From positions 1 to 20,717 of IMG/VR virus record IMGVR_UViG_3300015360_000231: 20,717 nt of DNA, one strand, 5' to 3'. The DNA comes from a virus. Below are positions 1,913-15,412 of the stretch, piece after piece; the first letter of the stretch is position 1; each line of letters opens with the position of its first letter. The notes below the pieces were generated by a model that had not been told where the DNA came from, made no database searches, and saw only the letters and a program-made list of their open reading frames with translations. Position numbers and translations under genes: made by a program.

Positions 1913-4267
1913 ATGCCGGGAGCGTTATTTTCACGACTAAAGACCTGGGTCGCGACGGAAGACGTCACATACAGTGACCTCAATGCGGAATTTAATAACA
2001 TTCTGCAAAACCTCCTTCCCGCAATGGTCGATGATTATTCGACGAATGTTTCGCAAATGCAGGTGATGACAGATCCAGGAGAAGTCGGAACCGAGTCTCT
2101 TGCGACAACCCTCGCGGGTGAAATAGCGCGTCTGCGCTTTTCGCTGAAGTCTGTTACGGGAAAGGACTACTGGTACGAAAGTCCAGATACGACACTTGCC
2201 GATCTCGTAAATGCAATCGGAACGGGACTCGCAACGAATCGTATTTCTTCCGGTAAGGTCTCTGCAAATTCCAGCCAACTCGTTGCACTTGATCCAGACG
2301 GAACTGCTGCGACTATTGTCCTGGACGGAACACCTACTAATTTTGTTTACTACATCAATGGCGTCGTCTATACGGTCACAACAGACATTACTATAACGGG
2401 ACTAAGTACTGCACCCGCAATAAACAACACCGCCCTCATAAATGACACACTCCTTGCGGATAATCAGTTCACACAGCATTTGGGTGAATACGGAACGACC
2501 ATTACGATTGATGCGGCAGGAACGGAAATTACAAACAAAGTCGGTCAATATGCGGCCTTCTCCATTAACAACGGAGCAGATACTGAGTATTTCATCGCTT
2601 ATATAAATTCCGCGACACAACTCACAAAAGCATGGAGAGGTTGTTTCTTTAATTCCAGCCAGGCGACAGTTAAACGCATTAAGTTCTCCGACAATGATAC
2701 GATTACACTTCTGCGCCTGACTTGGATATTCGGTAATACATCAAGCGGACTCGCCGTTACCTATAGTACTCCGACTTATGCAGCGACCCAACCCAGTGCT
2801 CCGAGCACAGGTGATTACTGGTTTGACCTTACGGCATCTACCTGGAAGACCTATAACTCAACGACGTGGGTCGCTGCGAATGCCACTCTTATCGGTGTCT
2901 CTGCTCAGACCTCTACTGCATGCGTCGCTGCAAGGACCTTTGATTCTTCTGCTGCGTTTTCCTCTTTCAGTTCAATTGAACTCGAATATGTCTCAAGTAC
3001 TGTTGTGCGAGCGAGGAATCACTTCGCGTCTGTTGCGGTAGGCTCATCGACGATTCGCTTCGGACTACAACTCCCTACGTGGGATATTGCAGCGAATCTC
3101 GATTCCGGTGTCGTCGAAGCTGCAAGTACATTTTATTACCTCTACGTAAAAGAATCCGGTGCGCCTGTTATTTCCGACATTGCTCCGAGTGATATGCGCG
3201 GAAGTCGTTATGGACTATATCACCCTGCAGAAATGTGGCGTTGTATAGGACGGATTAAGAATAATGCAAGTTCTAACTTCGATGAATCCACGGTGCAGGG
3301 TTTCGGCAATATTGCCCTCTCCGGTGACATCGGACAAGAAGCCTCGATGGAAACACCCTTTTCTTTAAACACTTCTGTTGGATCAAATAACTTAACCATT
3401 ACGTTGATGGATCGATTCGGTGACGTTCCAAGCCAACTTGCTCCGGTGAAATTCTCCTTCCGCAATACAACAGCTACAACGGGACAGAAGTACACAAGGT
3501 CACTTTACAAGCCACTTACGATTGTAGTACCCAATGCAGCGACACTCGGGCATACGTCAAACGTAGGTCAATATGTATGGGTCGCAGTTATCGACGATAA
3601 CGGAACCTTAGATCTCGGTGTCTCTGGTGTTTCTCCCTTTGCAGAATCTTCCCTCGCTACACCAACTCAAGTCAGTTCGGGTGCGACATCGGGATACGTG
3701 CTTTACTCGAGTAGCTCCATTGCAGGGAATCGTTCCTTTCACCTCTGCGGAAGACTTACATCAACGCAAACAACAGCCGGAACGTGGGCTACTGCGATCT
3801 CTGAGGTGAGCCTAAACGCAGTACCGCGCATAAACCGCACTCAGCCTATATCTTACACGCCAACCTTTACGGGCTTCGGATCGCCCACTGGAATTGTCGT
3901 CTTGTCCCATCGTGAGGGACGCCATCTTATTATTGATGCTGCTGTTCAATCGGGTACTCCAACTGCAGTCGGGGCAAGCTTTACTATTGGCTTTGCGGGG
4001 ACAAACACACCCGCTAATATAACAATCGACACAGGTCTTTATGGGTCACTTTCGCGTCCCGTTGGTGTCTACGGAACAACTATTAATGGCGGTGGCGGAC
4101 TTACTGTTTATCAAAACAGCGGCACAACTATTGGTTTCGGTCAGTACTACACAAGTGCTGCGCAGGCCCTTCAAGCTACAAACGGAAACGTAATTGCAGT
4201 TATCACGAGTACACTCTCCTTTACGGCGAAAGTCGCAATTGCCGGATGGCACGAGTACGGGCCGTGA
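1913..4267 (+). CDS. Tail fibre / appendage protein
   Basis: A 784-residue protein. The N-terminus (about residues 1-100), containing the motif DVTYSDLNAEFNNIL, resembles the virion-attachment region of many phage tail fibres. The middle is a long, serine/threonine/alanine-rich beta repeat region with APSTGDYWFDLTASTWKTYN near residue 300, a phrase common in fibre shafts. The last ~140 residues, beginning YTPTFTGFGSP, look like a beta-sandwich C-terminal domain often found on phage receptor-binding or collar proteins. AGGAG at 1903-1907 lies 5 nt before ATG 1913. The role inferred is host recognition or adsorption. No peptidase, lyase or chaperone motif was recognised. It is the longest tail gene in the window and is followed by a cupin-like gene with a 4-nt overlap. 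Confidence 0.75.
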   Translation: MPGALFSRLKTWVATEDVTYSDLNAEFNNILQNLLPAMVDDYSTNVSQMQVMTDPGEVGTESLATTLAGEIARLRFSLKSVTGKDYWYESPDTTLADLVNAIGTGLATNRISSGKVSANSSQLVALDPDGTAATIVLDGTPTNFVYYINGVVYTVTTDITITGLSTAPAINNTALINDTLLADNQFTQHLGEYGTTITIDAAGTEITNKVGQYAAFSINNGADTEYFIAYINSATQLTKAWRGCFFNSSQATVKRIKFSDNDTITLLRLTWIFGNTSSGLAVTYSTPTYAATQPSAPSTGDYWFDLTASTWKTYNSTTWVAANATLIGVSAQTSTACVAARTFDSSAAFSSFSSIELEYVSSTVVRARNHFASVAVGSSTIRFGLQLPTWDIAANLDSGVVEAASTFYYLYVKESGAPVISDIAPSDMRGSRYGLYHPAEMWRCIGRIKNNASSNFDESTVQGFGNIALSGDIGQEASMETPFSLNTSVGSNNLTITLMDRFGDVPSQLAPVKFSFRNTTATTGQKYTRSLYKPLTIVVPNAATLGHTSNVGQYVWVAVIDDNGTLDLGVSGVSPFAESSLATPTQVSSGATSGYVLYSSSSIAGNRSFHLCGRLTSTQTTAGTWATAISEVSLNAVPRINRTQPISYTPTFTGFGSPTGIVVLSHREGRHLIIDAAVQSGTPTAVGASFTIGFAGTNTPANITIDTGLYGSLSRPVGVYGTTINGGGGLTVYQNSGTTIGFGQYYTSAAQALQATNGNVIAVITSTLSFTAKVAIAGWHEYGP

Positions 4268-4707
4268 GTAATTTAATTAAACCCAATTCGGAATTAGCGC
4301 CGGAAGCATTAGAGATACGTCAGGATATTCTTGCTCTCGAAGCTGCATGTATGGCGATGCCCGAGGAGCAACGGTTTCATCAACTTCCTCTTACACATCA
4401 TTTCACTGACGGTATCTACGTTCGAACATGCATGATGAGAGCGGGCGATGTTATCGTAGGCAAAATACACAAACTCGAGCATACGGTTATTATTAGCATG
4501 GGCCGTGCTCAAGTAACCTCGGAGGAGTTTGGCGATAGGGTACTTTCCGCACCTATGGTTTTCGTTAGTCCGCCCGGAGTAAAACGCGCATTACTCATTG
4601 AGGAAGATATGATCTGGAGTACGGTCCACCCTAATCCGACAAATACCCAGGACTTGGCAGAACTTGAAAAGCAGCTAATAATGGAATCCTATGAGGAGGG
4701 CGTATGA
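4264..4707 (+). CDS. Cupin-like small virion-operon protein
   Basis: The conserved-looking core reads GIYVRTCMMRAGDVIVGKIH, then HTVIISMGRAQV, APMVFVSPPGVKRA and DMIWSTVHPNP. The spacing of G, H, glycine-rich turn, P-G and H is that of a single-domain cupin (double-stranded beta barrel), with candidate metal or ligand histidines in GKIHKLEH and TVHP. Similar small cupin-like proteins recur in phage tail or internal-virion operons; their job is unsettled. I chose the GTG at 4264 because it makes a GTGA overlap with the preceding stop; an in-frame ATG at 4246 (six codons earlier) is equally open and lacks an obvious SD. The stop overlaps the next ATG (4704) by ATGA. Confidence 0.65.
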   Translation: MSNLIKPNSELAPEALEIRQDILALEAACMAMPEEQRFHQLPLTHHFTDGIYVRTCMMRAGDVIVGKIHKLEHTVIISMGRAQVTSEEFGDRVLSAPMVFVSPPGVKRALLIEEDMIWSTVHPNPTNTQDLAELEKQLIMESYEEGV

Positions 4708-5519
4708 GTTTTATCGCAGTCGGAGCGGGTGCCATAGCAGTCGGTGGAGCCATACAGTATACTGGCGCAAGGAAAGCTGCAAAAGCAGCGCAGAAATCGG
4801 CGAGGGCAAAAGCAGCAGAAGCCTATCGCCAGCGTACCGAGACCATGGCCTACGCCAAAGAGAATCAAGCAAACACTCTCTCTGCGATGAATTCAATCGA
4901 GGAGTTAAATGCATTCGGCCAGTCACTCGGTTATGCGCAAAAGCAAGCTGACCAAGACCAGCGACTTATTGATTCGATCGATCCCGCACTCATGGACGCA
5001 AGTAAGCAAGTCCTCGGTCTCCTCAAAGGCGATACATCGGGTGTTGGAAACATAGTAAATAATCAACGAGCAATGCAACGGCAGAAACTCCTTTCATCGC
5101 TTCGCGAACAACTCGGACCCGGTGCAGAGACCTCAACGGCAGGCATACAGGCACTCACTCGGTTTGACTCTGAGTCAGCGAGTTTAAGTGCATCGACACA
5201 GGGCCAGTCTCTCGCGTCACTCATGGGGCTCATCAATGGGCGTCCGACAAATGCAGGTGCAGGTAATATCGCACAGATCGGACAACTCTACGGAAACCGC
5301 GCCAACCGCATGGGTAATGCAACAATGCAAACCGGACAGTCAACTCTAAATGCCATGATGGGCACGAATGCTCAGGTTCTTGAGACGACGGGACATCAAT
5401 ACCTGGGTGCCCAACTCAACGGAAGGGCAATGCAACAGTTTGGCGGACAGATAACACAAGCTGGAGCAACAGTAATGGGTGGCGCAGCAAGTGGCGGAAT
5501 GGGTGGCCGGAGCAGGTAA
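4704..5519 (+). CDS. Ejection/internal virion protein with N-terminal membrane-like helix
   Basis: A 271-residue protein starting MSFIAVGAGAIAVGGAIQYT, a glycine/alanine-rich hydrophobic segment resembling the N-terminus of small podoviral ejection proteins. This is followed by an Ala/Lys/Gln-rich, likely helical stretch (about residues 22-75) with KAAKAAQKSARAKAAEAYR, then a Gln/Asn/Gly/Met-rich C-terminal half ending GGAASGGMGGRSR. By analogy with T7 gp14-type proteins it may insert into the host envelope during DNA delivery; this is inference from composition and neighbourhood, not a sequence match. GAGGAGGG at 4693-4700 is the SD, and the ATG overlaps the cupin-like stop (ATGA). Good confidence that it is a gene and virion associated; moderate for the ejection role. 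Confidence 0.65.
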   Translation: MSFIAVGAGAIAVGGAIQYTGARKAAKAAQKSARAKAAEAYRQRTETMAYAKENQANTLSAMNSIEELNAFGQSLGYAQKQADQDQRLIDSIDPALMDASKQVLGLLKGDTSGVGNIVNNQRAMQRQKLLSSLREQLGPGAETSTAGIQALTRFDSESASLSASTQGQSLASLMGLINGRPTNAGAGNIAQIGQLYGNRANRMGNATMQTGQSTLNAMMGTNAQVLETTGHQYLGAQLNGRAMQQFGGQITQAGATVMGGAASGGMGGRSR

Positions 5520-5582
5520 AGTAAAACCGACCACATAGACAGTAGCTGAAGGAAACCATGAAGACACAGGAAACATATCTTA

Positions 5583-9470: not shown

Positions 9471-9637
9471 TAACCTTCCTTACCGAAGAGGTTCGGACGC
9501 AGTATCATCTCCTCGGGCTAGACCTTCAGCGAGAGATTCAGCTTCTCGCAGATCATCTTCTCGGGGAGAACAAGTCCATTACTATACTTTTTGCGGACGC
9601 CACGTACTCAGAGGTGTCGATCAGGATCGATGAGTAG
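9467..9637 (+). CDS. Small unknown protein ending the virion operon
   Basis: A 56-residue ORF beginning MITFLTEEVRTQYHLLG and ending SEVSIRIDE. Its ATG overlaps the TGA of the large ejection protein gene by the ATGA arrangement used repeatedly in this window, and the predicted protein alternates hydrophobic and charged residues as a helix-strand fold would. No SD is needed if translation is coupled. Its last 30 nt overlap, on the opposite strand, the 3' end of the helicase/primase gene. No family recognised. The main alternative is a chance ORF, but the exact start overlap and even amino acid usage favour a gene. Confidence 0.5.
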   Translation: MITFLTEEVRTQYHLLGLDLQREIQLLADHLLGENKSITILFADATYSEVSIRIDE

Positions 9638-10822
9638 GGTGAGATTCTGACTCGAATCACAAGCAAGCCAGCCCGAGTTAAGCATAAAGTCGATTGTCTT
9701 TTGAATTGCCTCGACATTATTACCACTCCCGAGACCATGCGCCTGGAGTGCTTTGCGGTTCATTTTCCCACCATTCTTCTTTAGTGCCTGCGAGATCATT
9801 TGCGTAACACCGTTTTGACTTTGCTTATCCGCAATAACGGCCTGTGTGATAATAAAGGCATTATCCTTCGTTACGTCTTCAATGAGAGCTTTTCCGCGCT
9901 CCCAGTGCGATTCATTTAACTCAAGGCGATCATTTTCCGCAACAGACAAGAGCATGCAGATTTTCATGAGATTCGTCATCTTACGCGCCATAATGGATTC
10001 CATGCGTGGCGAATTCAGTCCGATTAAATAACGATCAAATTCCGGCTGTTCTCTTTTCCACGACTCGATAAATCCCGTCGATGCAGTAAAGCGTCCTTTG
10101 ATTTTATTTATAAGTGCAAGGTCATGAATTAGCGCCTGGCGCATCTTCTCATCCACTTCAATCGACTCGTCCCACTTGGCTTCTCTGACCTGCCGATCCT
10201 TTGATATGACGTAAATAAAGCGAGAGGCGAGACCACCCATGACGGATTGTTCGTTCACGAGGTTCTTTAAGTAGTCGAATGTCGCGCCCGCAAGGAGATT
10301 AAAACACGCATTGGGAATCTCCGTAATTTCCTTCTCCGACTTGAGCTTCTTGCGAAAGACCTTCGGGCAATCGTAAAGTGCCGTAATCGTAGCGTTGAAA
10401 TCACCGAATAGGTTTTGCAGAGCCGAAGCCGACGCTTCACTCGCATAGAAGTATCCACTTGAGTGAAAGACAATCTTAGGCCCGAAAGTCATCTCCGAAA
10501 GAACGCGCATCATTTCGATAAGACCAGGCTCTGTAATTTGATTCGGAATAATCTTCAGGTCAGGACTGAGCGTCTCGCGTATTTCTTCCAATAAGTCCAC
10601 CCCGCGATCAATCGCGGTTGACTTGCCTACACCCGGATGGGAAACGAGCAGTGTGAATATGTTTGGGTAATGCATCACCATTCCTTGATTTACCCAGACC
10701 TTACGCTCAAGTGCTCCGGCGAGAATAGAGAGTCCAATCCATTCGTGGAATGAATCGGGGCAGAAATTATCTCGTGCGTAGGCGAAATAGGCATCGAGGA
10801 AATCAGGGAATTTTCTCATCAT
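9608..10822 (-). CDS. P-loop helicase/primase-helicase (DUF3987-like)
   Basis: A 404-residue product from ATG 10822. Walker A is SHPGVGKST (about residues 61-69), followed ~60-80 residues later by IVFHSSGYFYASEA, which fits a Walker B/DE position, and AGATFDYLKNL plus ASRFIYVI, matching motifs of phage DUF3987-type ATPases. These proteins act as replicative helicases or helicase partners of primases; no primase catalytic TOPRIM or AEP motif is evident. The reading frame is open 10 codons further upstream, but AAGGAG just 7 nt before the ATGATG pair decides the start at 10822. The gene starts inside the 46-aa ORF and is last in the replication operon. Its 3' end overlaps the converging virion operon by 30 nt. 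Confidence 0.75.
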   Translation of the reverse strand: MMRKFPDFLDAYFAYARDNFCPDSFHEWIGLSILAGALERKVWVNQGMVMHYPNIFTLLVSHPGVGKSTAIDRGVDLLEEIRETLSPDLKIIPNQITEPGLIEMMRVLSEMTFGPKIVFHSSGYFYASEASASALQNLFGDFNATITALYDCPKVFRKKLKSEKEITEIPNACFNLLAGATFDYLKNLVNEQSVMGGLASRFIYVISKDRQVREAKWDESIEVDEKMRQALIHDLALINKIKGRFTASTGFIESWKREQPEFDRYLIGLNSPRMESIMARKMTNLMKICMLLSVAENDRLELNESHWERGKALIEDVTKDNAFIITQAVIADKQSQNGVTQMISQALKKNGGKMNRKALQAHGLGSGNNVEAIQKTIDFMLNSGWLACDSSQNLTLLIDPDRHL

Positions 10823-10943
10823 CTCGCTTCTCCTTAAGCTTTGCGAGTACACGTTGGATAATCTCTTCTCGCTTTTCCTGTAGAAAAAGAGTGACTTCCT
10901 CTTCGATTAGAGTCGCTACGTTAATTTTGCGCGGTTCTTCCAC
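10803..10943 (-). CDS. 46-aa helical protein between polymerase and helicase
   Basis: A GTG-initiated ORF whose first base is the last base of the polymerase TAG (TAGTG), preceded by GAGGAG inside the polymerase 3' end at suitable spacing. The product starts MEEPRKINVATLIEEE and ends KEKRDDEKIP; it is highly charged (Glu, Lys, Arg) and should form one long helix. Its last 20 nt overlap the helicase start in another frame, and the helicase SD lies within it. No family recognised. It could be a small replication accessory protein or a translational coupler between polymerase and helicase. The tight junctions and SD make a real gene likely. Confidence 0.6.
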   Translation of the reverse strand: MEEPRKINVATLIEEEVTLFLQEKREEIIQRVLAKLKEKRDDEKIP

Positions 10944-13204
10944 TATTCAATCTCCTCTAGCCTCGCCATACATCGACCCGCCTTCGTCTCAACGGGAATA
11001 ATCATCCGCCCTCCGGAAAGTGTAACCTCCGGATGCCACGCCATGAGTTGATGACAGGCTTTAGCGTACTGCGCTTCCCGTCCCTCGGGGACGAGGGAGA
11101 TGAGCGCATCGTGACCTTGATAAATGAGACGAAACTTTAGTCTTCCCGCTTTTCGTTCATCCATCAAGTGCAGCATCATATGATTCGTAACCCAAGGAAT
11201 TGTATGTTGCGGACGCCATGCGTAGGCTTCTTTGAACATATCGTCGCCAAAGCGCCCGTAGAAGTACCGTTCCCAGCCGGATGGCGCAGTAAGCTTGCGC
11301 TTTAGGTTAAGTTCGCGGCGAACCCACGCATGCCAACGCGGTATTCCGGGGAATAGACCGTAATAGGCCGCTGTGATGGCCTCGGCGTCTTTTCTCGTAA
11401 TCACCATGTCGAGTTCGTTAAAGACCGTTTCGACGAAGACTCCAGGCTTCATGAAATAATTAAGCCCGTGTCCGGCCTTCTTGCCGAGTTGACGCCACGT
11501 TGACTTGAACTCGTCCTTTGGAATGGCGTCGGGGTCTTTGCCCATTTGAAGGACGATGGCGCGTCCGACGTGCGTATGGACGTCCGCTCCTGATTCGAGC
11601 ATGTCGATTAAGGTCTTGTCCGCTGAATCATAAGCGACGAAGCGTGATTCGGCCTGGCGGAGATCCGTCTCGACGAAAGTCCACCCCTCCGGCGCAACGA
11701 ACATCTGTTTAATTGAGACGTCGCCACCTTCACGCGGAATTGTCTGGATGTTGAAGCCACGGTCCCAGGGGTCTTTTCCACCCGACCAGCGCAGTGTCTC
11801 CGTGCCTGCTCCATTGAGTGAATAGGGGAGTCTGCCGTCTGGACGAACGACGAAATCAATATAGGAGGAAAGCGCCTTACCGAGAGACTTAATGTCCTGC
11901 AGTGCTGCAAGTTCACGCAACTCGGGATGCTTGAGGCGGATCTTCTTTATTGCTGACGAATCAACGCTCTCTTTGTATCCACCCGAGGCTTTGTCATATT
12001 TCTTCGGTATCTTCACGTTCTTCGCCTTCAGGTATTTCATTACCTGTGGGGAGGAGCGGGGATTTAACTCGCCTCCGGTGGCGGAGTGGAAGTCGGCGGT
12101 AAGGGTCTTAATCTTTGACTCGACCTCGATTCGCAATGCTTCACGAGTTTCGAGAGAAAGAGGCATTCCAACGGCGCACATTTCACGGATAGGCTCAGAT
12201 AGGCGCATGAGATAAGAAGTAAATAGGCCATCGAGTTTCCGTACTCGGAGATCGGATAACTGAGCGCCTTTCGCCTCAAACGTACCAGTGGTGTCTCGAC
12301 AGTTATATATATAATGTTTAGTCCAGTCACGTACGTTACCCCAGTCCTTCTTCTTGCCCTCTTCGTCTGTAACCTTTCCGTCATCCTTCCAGTATGGCCG
12401 CTTCGTGTAAATGCGTCCAACATTTCCGAGATTCGACTTAAGCTCAGGCCAAAGGAACTTCATCGCCCACATAGTGTCGAAGATTTCTCCTTCTGTTCTT
12501 ATTCCGTAGGCTGAGAAATAAGAGAGGTCATAGATATGGTTCTGCAGGATCTTCCGGCTAGGAGACGTGAGAACTCCTGATATGGCTCGCCAGAGTTCAA
12601 AGTAAGAATGATCGGAGAATCGGTCGGGGAGCACATTAATTGCAATAGCATCGGATGCACTCCAGGCGAAACCAACAGTGTTAATTTGTCCATATCCGGT
12701 TTCGACATCGACTGCCACTTCTGGTCGTTCGGCAATGTCTGAGAGAATTGCAAGGGATTCCTCCAGTGAGGGGTTAAGGATGAAACGCTCAGGCGGGGTA
12801 ATCCAAGTGGGCTCAAGCACTTCAATGGCACGACGAAAGGCGAGTTCTTGGTATAGCCCAAGCTCGGGTTGTTTTTGTATTCGACCGAGGTCGTAGGTCG
12901 GGATAAAATACTGTCCCTCTGAAATTACAAGGGGGCTTAACTGCCACTTATCTATTCCGCGCTTTTGTGTAAAATGACGCAGTACTTTCTCGCCGAGACC
13001 AACAATTACACTCGCATTATTATAGTGAGTGTTTTCATTAAAGAGGTCGATGCGGACACGGTCGGGTGAGATACCGGCGCGAAGGAGTCTTCCTCGAAGG
13101 GACTCCCACTGCCACCCGGAGAACATTCCGAGGTGATCAGTCGAGCCCGCACGTACTTCGTCGATTATGATGACAATCTGGGATGATGGATCAGTCGGCG
13201 TCAT
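10943..13204 (-). CDS. Family A DNA polymerase with 3'-5' exonuclease and UDG-like N-terminal region
   Basis: A 753-residue replicative polymerase. Residues ~1-135 resemble a uracil-DNA glycosylase fold: VIIIDEVRAGS, then SVIVGLGEKVLRHFTQKRGI (~65-84), then FIPTYDLGRIQKQPEL (~100-114), where an active enzyme would have a YHP-type histidine motif; here it is TYDLG. Residues ~150-320 are a DnaQ-like 3'-5' exonuclease: DVE (D166, E168), NHIYD (D226) and YNCRD (Y300, D304). Residues ~330-753 are the polymerase: motif A FVETDLRQAESRF (D514, E519), motif B RQLGKKAGHGLNYF (R571, K575, Y583) and motif C YQGHDAL (H698, D699). All key exonuclease and polymerase residues are present except that motif C has HDA rather than HDE. 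The SD before ATG 13204 is weak (TAGAG). It follows the SSB gene by 28 nt and joins the next ORF by TAGTG. Confidence 0.92.
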   Translation of the reverse strand: MTPTDPSSQIVIIIDEVRAGSTDHLGMFSGWQWESLRGRLLRAGISPDRVRIDLFNENTHYNNASVIVGLGEKVLRHFTQKRGIDKWQLSPLVISEGQYFIPTYDLGRIQKQPELGLYQELAFRRAIEVLEPTWITPPERFILNPSLEESLAILSDIAERPEVAVDVETGYGQINTVGFAWSASDAIAINVLPDRFSDHSYFELWRAISGVLTSPSRKILQNHIYDLSYFSAYGIRTEGEIFDTMWAMKFLWPELKSNLGNVGRIYTKRPYWKDDGKVTDEEGKKKDWGNVRDWTKHYIYNCRDTTGTFEAKGAQLSDLRVRKLDGLFTSYLMRLSEPIREMCAVGMPLSLETREALRIEVESKIKTLTADFHSATGGELNPRSSPQVMKYLKAKNVKIPKKYDKASGGYKESVDSSAIKKIRLKHPELRELAALQDIKSLGKALSSYIDFVVRPDGRLPYSLNGAGTETLRWSGGKDPWDRGFNIQTIPREGGDVSIKQMFVAPEGWTFVETDLRQAESRFVAYDSADKTLIDMLESGADVHTHVGRAIVLQMGKDPDAIPKDEFKSTWRQLGKKAGHGLNYFMKPGVFVETVFNELDMVITRKDAEAITAAYYGLFPGIPRWHAWVRRELNLKRKLTAPSGWERYFYGRFGDDMFKEAYAWRPQHTIPWVTNHMMLHLMDERKAGRLKFRLIYQGHDALISLVPEGREAQYAKACHQLMAWHPEVTLSGGRMIIPVETKAGRCMARLEEIE

Positions 13205-13232: not shown

Positions 13233-13613
13233 TTAGTTCATTTTAACGGGACGAATGCGCTTCACTTCAGTGTAACCCGTGGGCTCACCGTTGCGAACGC
13301 CATCGACAAGTTCAATCTCAAGCTGTTTTCCGACAAGTTGTTCTGTGTCGAATGAACCAGTGAGAGACTGACCCGTTGCAGCTTTGTAGAACTGCTGAAG
13401 GCGGAAGGCTCCTTTGCCAGACGTTGCAGTCTTGTCGAAGATACGACGTCCGTTATTCTTCGCTTCGTCTTCACCGTATGTCTCAAGTTCCCAATTGATG
13501 TAAGAACCGCCGTTGGGCCATTCCTTTACTTCGCCTTTCTTAACGATGACTTTGTAGGTCCCAGCGGATACTTGATCCTGGATGTCGCTGAAATCCGGTT
13601 GTATTAGTGCCAT
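13233..13613 (-). CDS. Single-stranded DNA-binding-like protein (DUF669-like)
   Basis: A 126-residue small beta-rich protein: MALIQPDFSDIQDQVSAGTY at the start, then KGEVKEWPNGGSYINWELE, GRRIFDKTATSGKGAFRLQQ and QLEIELVDGVRNGEP near the end. The order G-x-Y...GGSYINW...GR.IFDKT...F.LQQF.KA..G matches the DUF669/phage SSB-like pattern, an OB-type fold thought to coat single-stranded DNA. Its place between a Sak4-like ATPase and DNA polymerase supports this. AAGGAG sits 8 nt before the ATG, the strongest SD in the operon, consistent with an abundant protein. A perfect stem-loop precedes it. No acidic C-terminal tail of the classical SSB type is seen; the end is RPVKMN. Confidence 0.7.
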   Translation of the reverse strand: MALIQPDFSDIQDQVSAGTYKVIVKKGEVKEWPNGGSYINWELETYGEDEAKNNGRRIFDKTATSGKGAFRLQQFYKAATGQSLTGSFDTEQLVGKQLEIELVDGVRNGEPTGYTEVKRIRPVKMN

Positions 13614-13655: not shown

Positions 13656-14387
13656 TTAATTGTATTTCTTTGCTAAACTATTCCAGTTTAGTTCGATCGG
13701 GTTCGGAAGTTTCGGTATCTGACTACGGCAGAAGTCATAATACGGATCAGCCTTCGTCTGCGCAAAGGGCTTACCGTCTTTCATGTAAACGCGGTAAACC
13801 TCCTCGAAGTAAATCGGAAGCTCCTGAGCGAACGAGCCATCCATAATAGGTGAGCGAATGATCTCACCCGTCAGATCAGATCTGTCCGTCTTTACGTGCG
13901 CCGTCATAATGACATTCATCGGCAGTGAGAGAAGACCGGGAATGAGCTTCATGAATTCGCGCTTAAGGATGCCATAATCCTGCATGCCGGGCTGTACTCC
14001 CTGCGCACAGGCAACGCGCTTAATGCCAGGATTCGTCCTGACGATATGAGAGAGAACCGCCGCCGAGAAGGTCGTTGCCGAGTCAATCACGAGGGTCTTA
14101 AACTTCGGTGCGGACTGCGCTGGAATTAACTCCTCTTTGATTATCTTTTGCATCTCTACGATGGGGTCACTTCCGTCGAGGCGCTGACTCATGCTGCGAA
14201 CGTCGATATTTTCGAGGCGCTCTTTGTCAGACGCATACCATGCAGCGGCGGAATTTACCTTACCGTCGAAGTCGAGGAATAGAATCGGACAAGGTGCACC
14301 CGCAGCAAAACAGGTCTTCGTTGATCCGGGAGGCCCAACAAGGAGCATTTTTATATTCGCCGAGGTCTGGACATCGCTTAACTTCAT
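13656..14387 (-). CDS. Sak4-like RecA-fold ATPase (recombinase/annealing helper)
   Basis: A 243-residue product from ATG 14387. Walker A GPPGSTKT (18-25), a FLDFDGK strand-turn (~37-43), Walker B TLVIDSATTF (~98-107, D102), and a sensor-like strand NVIMTAHVKTD match phage AAA_24/Sak4-type proteins. These are small RecA-core ATPases that promote single-strand annealing or exchange, usually together with an SSB, as here. The frame is open 42 codons upstream, but ATG 14387 overlaps the nuclease stop as ATGA and is followed at once by the fold, so it was chosen. No DnaB or MutS features are present. Second gene of the operon. Confidence 0.78.
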   Translation of the reverse strand: MKLSDVQTSANIKMLLVGPPGSTKTCFAAGAPCPILFLDFDGKVNSAAAWYASDKERLENIDVRSMSQRLDGSDPIVEMQKIIKEELIPAQSAPKFKTLVIDSATTFSAAVLSHIVRTNPGIKRVACAQGVQPGMQDYGILKREFMKLIPGLLSLPMNVIMTAHVKTDRSDLTGEIIRSPIMDGSFAQELPIYFEEVYRVYMKDGKPFAQTKADPYYDFCRSQIPKLPNPIELNWNSLAKKYN

Positions 14388-15412
14388 GACGGAGTGCCTT
14401 TCGTGAATTTTGCAGAGAGAATGTTTTCGCGCATAGACTTCGGAGCGGAGCAAACGGAAAGAAAAGTACAACCGCCGTACATAGTGCAGGAATTCACAGG
14501 ACCAATCGGCCATGAGTTCGTCTCAAGCATATTGACGTAATCCTTCGCTGCACGAACAACGGCTTCCTTGAACTCATCAAAATCAAAGACGTCACGGGTT
14601 GTAATTTGACGCGGATAATGGGGGAGCGACCCCCGTGACGTCTTTGGCTTTTCTTTAACTTGTAGGCAATTTACGAGGAAGCCAAACGTCGGAAGTCCGA
14701 AGACCTCACGTGCACCATAAAGGTAACCCGTATACTGATGATTGGGCTTCAGGCGATTGTAGAAATCATTCCCGACGACTGATGAGGTCTTATGATCCGC
14801 AACGAGGACTTCACCTGTGTGAATGTGTCGCACTCCGAGATCGATCGTTCCGAAGTACTCAACGACAAGGTCAGCGCAATCGTGGACGACGACGGAGAAC
14901 TTCCGCTCAACGAAAGGACCCTGCTCGTCTACGATTGCAACATATGGATCATCAATGAAGGTCTTGAAATAGTGGTAGAGTATCCAGACGCCATTTTGAA
15001 TCGAACGCTTGTCGGTTTCTGGGAGTGCAGAGAGTGCCTGAGCCTTCTCGATAAACCCCGCAAGTGCCCTCGTAACGAGTCCATCGGGAACACCATGTCC
15101 ATAGGCGAGAAGCTCACAGTCTTCGATTTTCGGAAGGATGCGCTCCTCGACTGGACCTGAGTAGAAGATCTCAAGGGCTTTATGGACTGCAGAACCGAAG
15201 ATCGTAGCTGGACTTTCGTACTCAGCCCGCCAACGTGAGTGAAGGAGGAGATTCGCTTTTCGCGGACACTCCTGAATAACAGATACAGATGAGGAATTAA
15301 TACGGACTTTAGTCCGTCCGTCGTCCAGTTTCGTGACAGAAATCATCTCCTTGGGCGGTTGCGCTGCGATAGCAGGCACGACCTCACCGAGGTTTACGTC
15401 TACATGAGCCAT
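14384..15412 (-). CDS. Cas4/RecB-like PD-(D/E)XK nuclease with probable Fe-S cysteines
   Basis: A 342-residue protein. SSVSVIQECPRK (~41-52) is the N-terminal helix of the RecB/Cas4 superfamily with C49. FGSAVHKALE (~72-81) supplies the motif-I histidine H77, GTIDLGVR the acidic residue D191, and LVADHKTS D206 and K208 of the PD-(D/E)XK core; HQYTGYLYG is the following QxxxY helix. Three further cysteines, C309, C315 and C321, near the C-terminus together with C49 match the Cas4/AddB four-cysteine iron-sulphur layout. Phage members act as 5'-3' exonucleases or end-processing enzymes that expose strands for a recombinase, fitting the Sak4-like gene that follows by ATGA overlap. It is the first gene of the operon; a GGGGA 9 nt upstream is a weak SD. 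Confidence 0.82.
   Translation of the reverse strand: MAHVDVNLGEVVPAIAAQPPKEMISVTKLDDGRTKVRINSSSVSVIQECPRKANLLLHSRWRAEYESPATIFGSAVHKALEIFYSGPVEERILPKIEDCELLAYGHGVPDGLVTRALAGFIEKAQALSALPETDKRSIQNGVWILYHYFKTFIDDPYVAIVDEQGPFVERKFSVVVHDCADLVVEYFGTIDLGVRHIHTGEVLVADHKTSSVVGNDFYNRLKPNHQYTGYLYGAREVFGLPTFGFLVNCLQVKEKPKTSRGSLPHYPRQITTRDVFDFDEFKEAVVRAAKDYVNMLETNSWPIGPVNSCTMYGGCTFLSVCSAPKSMRENILSAKFTKGTPS

Follow-up and report, generated by a model that had tools for sequence, protein, structure and literature searches.

A phage-type family A DNA polymerase with an N-terminal uracil-DNA glycosylase fold devoid of catalytic motifs, and repeated loss of the catalytic histidine among related polymerases

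The stretch of DNA analysed here (the window, a viral sequence record 20,717 bases long) encodes a family A DNA polymerase whose first 135 residues, as judged from its relatives and a predicted structure, belong by fold and descent to the uracil-DNA glycosylase (UDG) superfamily, and in which the catalytic motifs of a UDG are gone. Related viruses seem to have lost the glycosylase pocket several times while keeping the domain, a pattern of sequence change which suggests that the domain is now a structural handle and not a repair tool. The fusion of a UDG domain to a phage polymerase is already known from SPO1 and phiLo, and the link is old, since chains in the PDB carry the name 'Phage SPO1 DNA polymerase-related protein'. 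Our literature search found no account of repeated pocket loss with the UDG domain kept on phage polymerases, PMC2147016 naming a UDG gene in a figure legend; the search was thin on subscription journals, and so the pattern may be published. Related polymerases with intact to wholly lost pockets form a natural series on otherwise similar enzymes, with which one could test why phage polymerases carry UDG domains, and uracil repair should not be read into such phages from fold alone.

By its sequence the open reading frame (ORF) is a family A DNA polymerase with a 3'-5' exonuclease, catalytic residues of both being present (Table 1). PF00476 is matched at 106.7 bits (cut-off 34.3), PF01612 at 23.7 bits, barely above its cut-off of 23.6, and the match to the phage polymerase family phrog_17 begins at residue 53. 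In alignment A4 the exonuclease residues D166 and E168 and the downstream Y300 and D304 are invariant, while D514, K575, Y583, H698 and D699 of the polymerase are invariant or at least 90% conserved. Motif C (residues 698-700) reads HDA in the window and HDS in the relative L002 and in the A4 consensus; that of E. coli Pol I is HDE. In both the window and L001 the ATG is preceded, at a distance of five codons, by an in-frame stop, so the start is not far mis-set. The preliminary description had the reading frame, its coordinates and the peptides right, VIVGLGEKVLRHF being residues 66-78 and FIPTYDLGR residues 100-108. The genes around it, encoded in the same direction, resemble genes for replication.

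Table 1. Features of the polymerase gene and its neighbourhood in the window (residue numbers refer to the polymerase).
Feature	Position	Strand	Basis or remark
Family A DNA polymerase ORF, 753 aa	10943..13204	-	PF00476 E 1.6e-30, PF01612 E 4.7e-5, phrog_17 E 1.1e-72
N-terminal domain with predicted UDG fold, residues 1-135, catalytic motifs lost	12800..13204	-	Profile match to relatives and structure model
Motif 1 (GEAPG) remnant, D15-E16-V17-R18	13151..13162	-	Alignment
Short loop, residues 55-65, at end of Asn strand and following segment	13010..13042	-	Alignment
W87-Q-L-S90, counterpart of WRGS in relatives	12935..12946	-	W and S retained
Motif 2 counterpart, T103-Y-D105-L106-G-R108 (YHPxxxxR in relatives)	12881..12898	-	His to Asp, Pro to Leu
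3'-5' exonuclease domain, residues 151-261	12422..12754	-	Pfam stretch
Polymerase domain, residues 355-743	10976..12142	-	Pfam stretch
DUF3987/primase-like ORF	9608-10852	-	Same strand as polymerase
DUF669/SSB-like ORF	13233-13613	-	Same strand as polymerase
Sak4-like AAA ORF	13656-14513	-	Same strand as polymerase
PD-(D/E)XK exonuclease ORF	14384-15412	-	Same strand as polymerase

A UDG fold over residues ~1-135 had been proposed in the preliminary description, and is upheld by the Pfam matches of relatives, by profile comparison and by a predicted model. Searched alone, the window polymerase failed to match a Pfam UDG family even with the threshold at E <= 10, its residues 1-162 matched no Pfam family at E <= 0.01 and its residues 1-145 no PHROG; the domain alone drew a single weak match in the PDB (E 0.36), a designed protein, and two weak matches among phages (E 7), and a search of genome_contigs for the polymerase clade found no relative. 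Because the window protein alone lacks a Pfam UDG match, its likeness to UDGs exceeds the reach of a plain family scan. Relatives were obtained by scanning with the aligned window polymerase and five relatives, the best 80 of 124 encoding loci being kept. PF03167 (UDG) was matched by 67 of 71 aligned N-terminal domains, with a best E of 3.4e-33, the exceptions being the window and its three closest relatives; scanned singly, L002, L004 and L022 had no match, as the window, nor did L102 (outside the 71), and the next relative, L005, matched at E 6.5e-7. In the PDB the profile of this N-domain family recovered UdgX and family 4 UDGs (E 4e-33 to 2.5e-21) as well as the polymerase of Thermus phage phiLo (9qhs; E 5.6e-9).

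A profile of the window clade (n=4) matched the N-terminal domains of 66 other polymerases over 135 columns at 97.8% probability (E 5.3e-12) in an initial run and over 124-134 columns at 96.8% (E 2.8e-10) in default runs, and the single window sequence matched the same profile at 95.8% (E 7.4e-9). Reversed sequences reached 0.1%, the best of 30 column shuffles an E of 0.0083 and a probability of 4.8%, and three exonuclease/polymerase profiles an E of 0.14 or worse; the match of the window clade is more than chance. The preliminary description had suggested a structure model as a check, and an AlphaFold2 model of residues 1-162 (pLDDT 88.6, pTM 0.77) aligns with both family 4 UDG and UdgX, on an input of which 67 of 71 rows match PF03167 and which may bias the model towards a UDG fold. 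VIA-align Z scores were 15.0 against TM0511 (132 residues, 3.4 A), 14.2 against TthUDGa (127 residues, 2.2 A), 13.1-14.2 against UdgX and 10.5 against the phiLo polymerase (122 residues, 2.7 A). The full-length polymerase is modelled as one confident body (pLDDT 91.9, pTM 0.90), for which the best solved matches listed are polymerase theta and Klenow fragment, at Z about 34 and over residues ~138 to the end; the phiLo structure 9qhs does not appear among the top 50 matches.

Loss of the catalytic His motif and an unrecognisable GEAPG-type motif were likewise correctly described beforehand, the HP counterpart in the window being D105-L106 and the GEAPG site reading DEVRA, and the loss is wider than was seen then, taking in the Asn region and a segment that lies between the second and third strands. 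Typical relatives read VGEAPG...PFVG...ITNV...ALGN...GITxWRGS...TYHPAxxxR, and the window IIDEVRA...MFSG...(Asn counterpart absent)...GLGE...GIDKWQLS...TYDLGRIQK. Family 4 UDGs carry a four-Cys iron-sulphur cluster, and there is no Cys in window residues 1-135; where an active family 4 UDG has GEAPG in motif 1, HP[SA] with the catalytic His in motif 2 and an Asn in the TNV strand, the window has DEVRA, YDLG and no aligned counterpart, respectively. The residues of the GEAPG, Asn and HP motifs presumably have the roles in uracil contact and catalysis that the UDG literature assigns to them. All six scored positions (Gly, Glu and Pro of motif 1, the Asn, His and Pro of motif 2) are changed or missing, with a motif 1 register that is uncertain by one residue, HHalign placing E16 on the Glu and the alignment with L102 and L005 placing D15 there. 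The Asp and Arg of the motif 1 remnant are common to the window, L002, L004, L022, L005 and L102, and Asp also takes the place of the motif 2 His in L002, L004 and L022. At window residues 55-65, L102 has 26 more residues and the profile of the other relatives about 44 more. This shortened form is found in the window, L001, L002, L003, L004 and L022, and L102, 41-42% identical to the window, is a halfway form that keeps more of the middle segment and reads VDFPR and SYLPDR. It is very improbable that the domain is still a glycosylase of changed chemistry or substrate: Mug/TDG-type glycosylases act without the motif 2 His, and an acidic residue stands at or beside the motif 1 Glu (D15/E16), but every one of the six positions is altered or missing and the motif 2 counterpart YDLG is unlike the NPSG of Mug.

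The family 4 UDGs TM0511, TthUDGa and S. tokodaii UDG, together with UdgX, share with the window domain the predicted fold over about 125-132 residues, the order of strands and helices, and the VIVxLG and GI-x-x-R/Q regions. The window domain differs from them in lacking GEAPG, the TNV Asn and the HP motif, in its length (about 135 residues, against 192-229 in the solved chains), in being fused to a polymerase and in carrying W-x-x-S. That UDG-like domains occur on phage family A polymerases had also been pointed out, and PF03167 matches the N-terminus of SPO1 gp31 (E 3.2e-23) and that of the phiLo polymerase (E 3.5e-22); SPO1 keeps IHP, with QENPF as its motif 1, and phiLo keeps GEAPG and NHP, whereas the window has lost these motifs. 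Relatives from viral contigs and phages (such as L023, L024 and L009) share the window's domain order, in which a UDG-like domain comes with an exonuclease and a polymerase, as well as W-x-x-S, but retain GEAPG, TN[VI] and HP intact.

Across 79 aligned polymerases the motif 2 His is present in 40 and absent in 39. Gly, Glu, Pro, Asn and His are all kept in 33 of these rows, and in 21 both His and Asn are absent and motif 1 is altered, the Asn column being a gap in four far rows (L013-L016). In a larger set of 84 aligned rows, 42 are His-less, with Ser (18), Ala (6), Asp (5), Pro (4), Thr (3) or other residues in its place. On the exonuclease-polymerase tree (79 rows) the His state changes 17 times, of which 11 changes are forced by well-supported branches; the trees were built quickly and carry SH-aLRT support alone, L005, L014, L045, L023, L025 and L058 are on long branches, and the tree program warned of the place of L014. 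Some of these changes may be domain swaps, as the silent sites of L068/L069 (below) would allow, and the count was therefore repeated on a tree of the UDG domain itself (73 rows), giving 13 changes with 4 forced. The Asn is kept in 42 of 79 rows, with 12 changes; there are 8 changes at the motif 1 Glu, 6 at the Pro of HP and 2 at the Asp of DLRR, and the LG glycine, kept in 76 of 79, changes once. Rows with His keep the Asn in 34 of 40 cases, against 8 of 39 without (Fisher 6e-9, rows counted regardless of kinship); on independent pairs the two losses agree in direction in 4.7 of 11 cases and are opposed in none (median p 0.06), and a link between them, as seen in these alignments, is suggestive only.

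Some far N-termini are of separate note. Those of L013, L015 and L016 (mycobacteriophages Muddy and JacoRen57, Gordonia phage Gibbous) and L014 (Vibrio phage 29Fa.3) likewise resemble UDG domains that have degenerated; the HP place in this group reads TIALG, SIAPG or SYDAG, and the N-termini of L013 and L014 have no Pfam match. In L010 and L019 (EBPR podovirus 3 and Polaromonas phage Tiera) only a YRGS/WRGS-like stretch is recognisable by eye, and these are perhaps further-eroded UDG domains.

The W-x-x-S motif has a different distribution. W is found in 74 and S in 78 of the 84 aligned rows, and in 71 and 74, respectively, of the 79 aligned polymerases, with 6 and 2 changes on the tree; the counterpart of S90 is present in all 73 core rows and never changes, either there or on the UDG-domain tree (73 rows). 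W is retained in 37, and S in 36, of the 39 rows without His. Both are absent from four solved free-standing UDGs (TM0511, TthUDGa, S. tokodaii and a UdgX mutant chain, reading VRGN, VRGK, VRGK and HRGE) and, by eye, from four of four free-standing phage UDGs (LRGN, EQGV, CRGQ, VRGM). Because they are missing from all eight free-standing UDGs examined, W and S look like a polymerase-specific contact, and we infer that in the window's polymerase group the pair may touch the polymerase body. The fused domains of SPO1 (VRGK), phiLo and several far phage rows also lack W-x-x-S, and the motif therefore does not mark fused domains at large.

The UDG-like domain has a dN/dS of 0.02-0.31 in the nine of 13 His-less pairs for which it was computable (dS being saturated in the others, and the value for the window and L001 resting on 2 changes), and was thus constrained after the loss of His. 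Its dN/dS exceeds that of the exonuclease and polymerase in most pairs with both values, and the median ratio of terminal branches, UDG-like domain to exonuclease-polymerase, is 1.91 in His-less tips and 1.20 in tips with His (Mann-Whitney p 4e-5), or 1.87 and 1.29 without six far rows (p 5e-4), with motif columns excluded and tips that are not independent. By these sequence measures constraint is relaxed, not gone. The domain could be a decaying relic, with no job beyond not disturbing folding and under trimming, as its outpacing of the rest of the enzyme in His-less tips, the shortened segment of the window clade and the still more eroded look of L010 and L019 would have it; this we hold to be unlikely in view of the purifying selection, the unchanging S90 counterpart, the retention of W and S in His-less rows and the confident joint model with the polymerase. 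As a separate observation, the UDG-like domain is more diverged at silent sites than the exonuclease-polymerase part in L068/L069 (36/138 against 6/375 sites), L085/L086 and L044/L048, in which the 5' end of the polymerase gene may have been swapped by recombination.

We consider it somewhat probable that residues 1-135 are a former family 4-type UDG domain which has lost uracil flipping and excision and has been kept as a structural, docking or DNA-holding module; of the functions that might be inferred for it this is the likeliest, because the motifs are gone, the domain is kept and a group-specific motif is nearly fixed. We hypothesize that a family 4-type UDG domain became joined to the replicative family A polymerase of a phage, would then have stopped flipping or excising uracil, and would have been retained as a rigid structural module packed, through a putative surface, on the exonuclease-polymerase body, where it probably strengthens the enzyme's hold on DNA or on a replisome partner, that is, in processivity or docking. 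Some observations weigh against such a module: the faster evolution in His-less tips and a domain dN/dS above that of the exonuclease and polymerase also fit slow decay, W changes 6 times on the tree, near the 8 of the motif 1 Glu, and SPO1, phiLo and several far phage rows have no W-x-x-S. More tentatively, the constant job of the fused domain in this group of phage polymerases may be that of a non-catalytic, polymerase-anchored module for DNA holding or docking, marked by W-x-x-S, with glycosylase activity as an optional extra that was switched off many times and the window as an extreme, trimmed case. If true, the fused domain would be to these phages what the processivity factor D4 is to vaccinia, but built into the polymerase.

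Vaccinia D4 and EBV UNG are, we presume, related to the window domain only at the superfamily level, and they differ from it in being separate, unfused UNG-type proteins that are themselves catalytically active. The proposed module would nonetheless be likened to D4, acting in cis. According to PMC4450493, the support that vaccinia D4 gives to processive synthesis does not depend on its glycosylase activity, and according to PMC5934625 a catalytically inactive EBV UNG restores viral replication in full; in both a UDG serves as a replication part with no need of catalysis, as envisaged here.

Three functions had been guessed at in the preliminary description (DNA binding, processivity and uracil sensing), and the last appears the least likely for this domain, which lacks counterparts of the residues that contact uracil in UDGs. 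Archaeal family B polymerases have a read-ahead pocket, to which an altered UDG pocket reading template uracil or a modified base with no excision could be likened; UDG pockets are base pockets, D15, R18, D105 and R108 are kept at the old motif sites in the window, L002, L004 and L022, and the solved relative 9qhs from phiLo is titled 'with modified template'. Such a sensor seems improbable, given that phiLo itself retains GEAPG and HP, that the window lacks the Asn region and the intact motifs by which family 4 enzymes contact uracil, and that related records give no sign of altered-base metabolism for the two families sought: dUTPase (PF00692) was found in none and dCMP deaminase (PF00383) in one of 43 records, many of them fragments. 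These 43 were searched out of 70 first named, being mostly longer contigs, with two near-copies standing in for others. PF03167 was matched in 38 of them, once each and with no second match, in open frames of 759-886 aa; it was absent from the records of the window, L002, L004, L022 and L102.

Several related polymerase genes have oddities of their own. In L004 (3995-7246), and also in L101, the polymerase ORF has about 330 extra residues, starting CLAKGMKVVTEKG, after the YN of the third exonuclease motif, and from its sequence this insert may be an intein. Motif C of the L005 polymerase (3358-5562) is aligned as GKS and not HD, with the exonuclease DxE and UDG HP motifs present, and L005 is possibly a polymerase-dead enzyme. 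The ORFs of L094 (3734-6997, 1087 aa), L070 (2198-3247, 349 aa) and L071 (3725-5482, 585 aa) are of unusual length, possibly reflecting insertions, introns or frameshifts. In L011 (Vibrio phage vB_VspS_VS-ABTNL-3) the polymerase match is split, falling on two annotated ORFs that are separated by a third.
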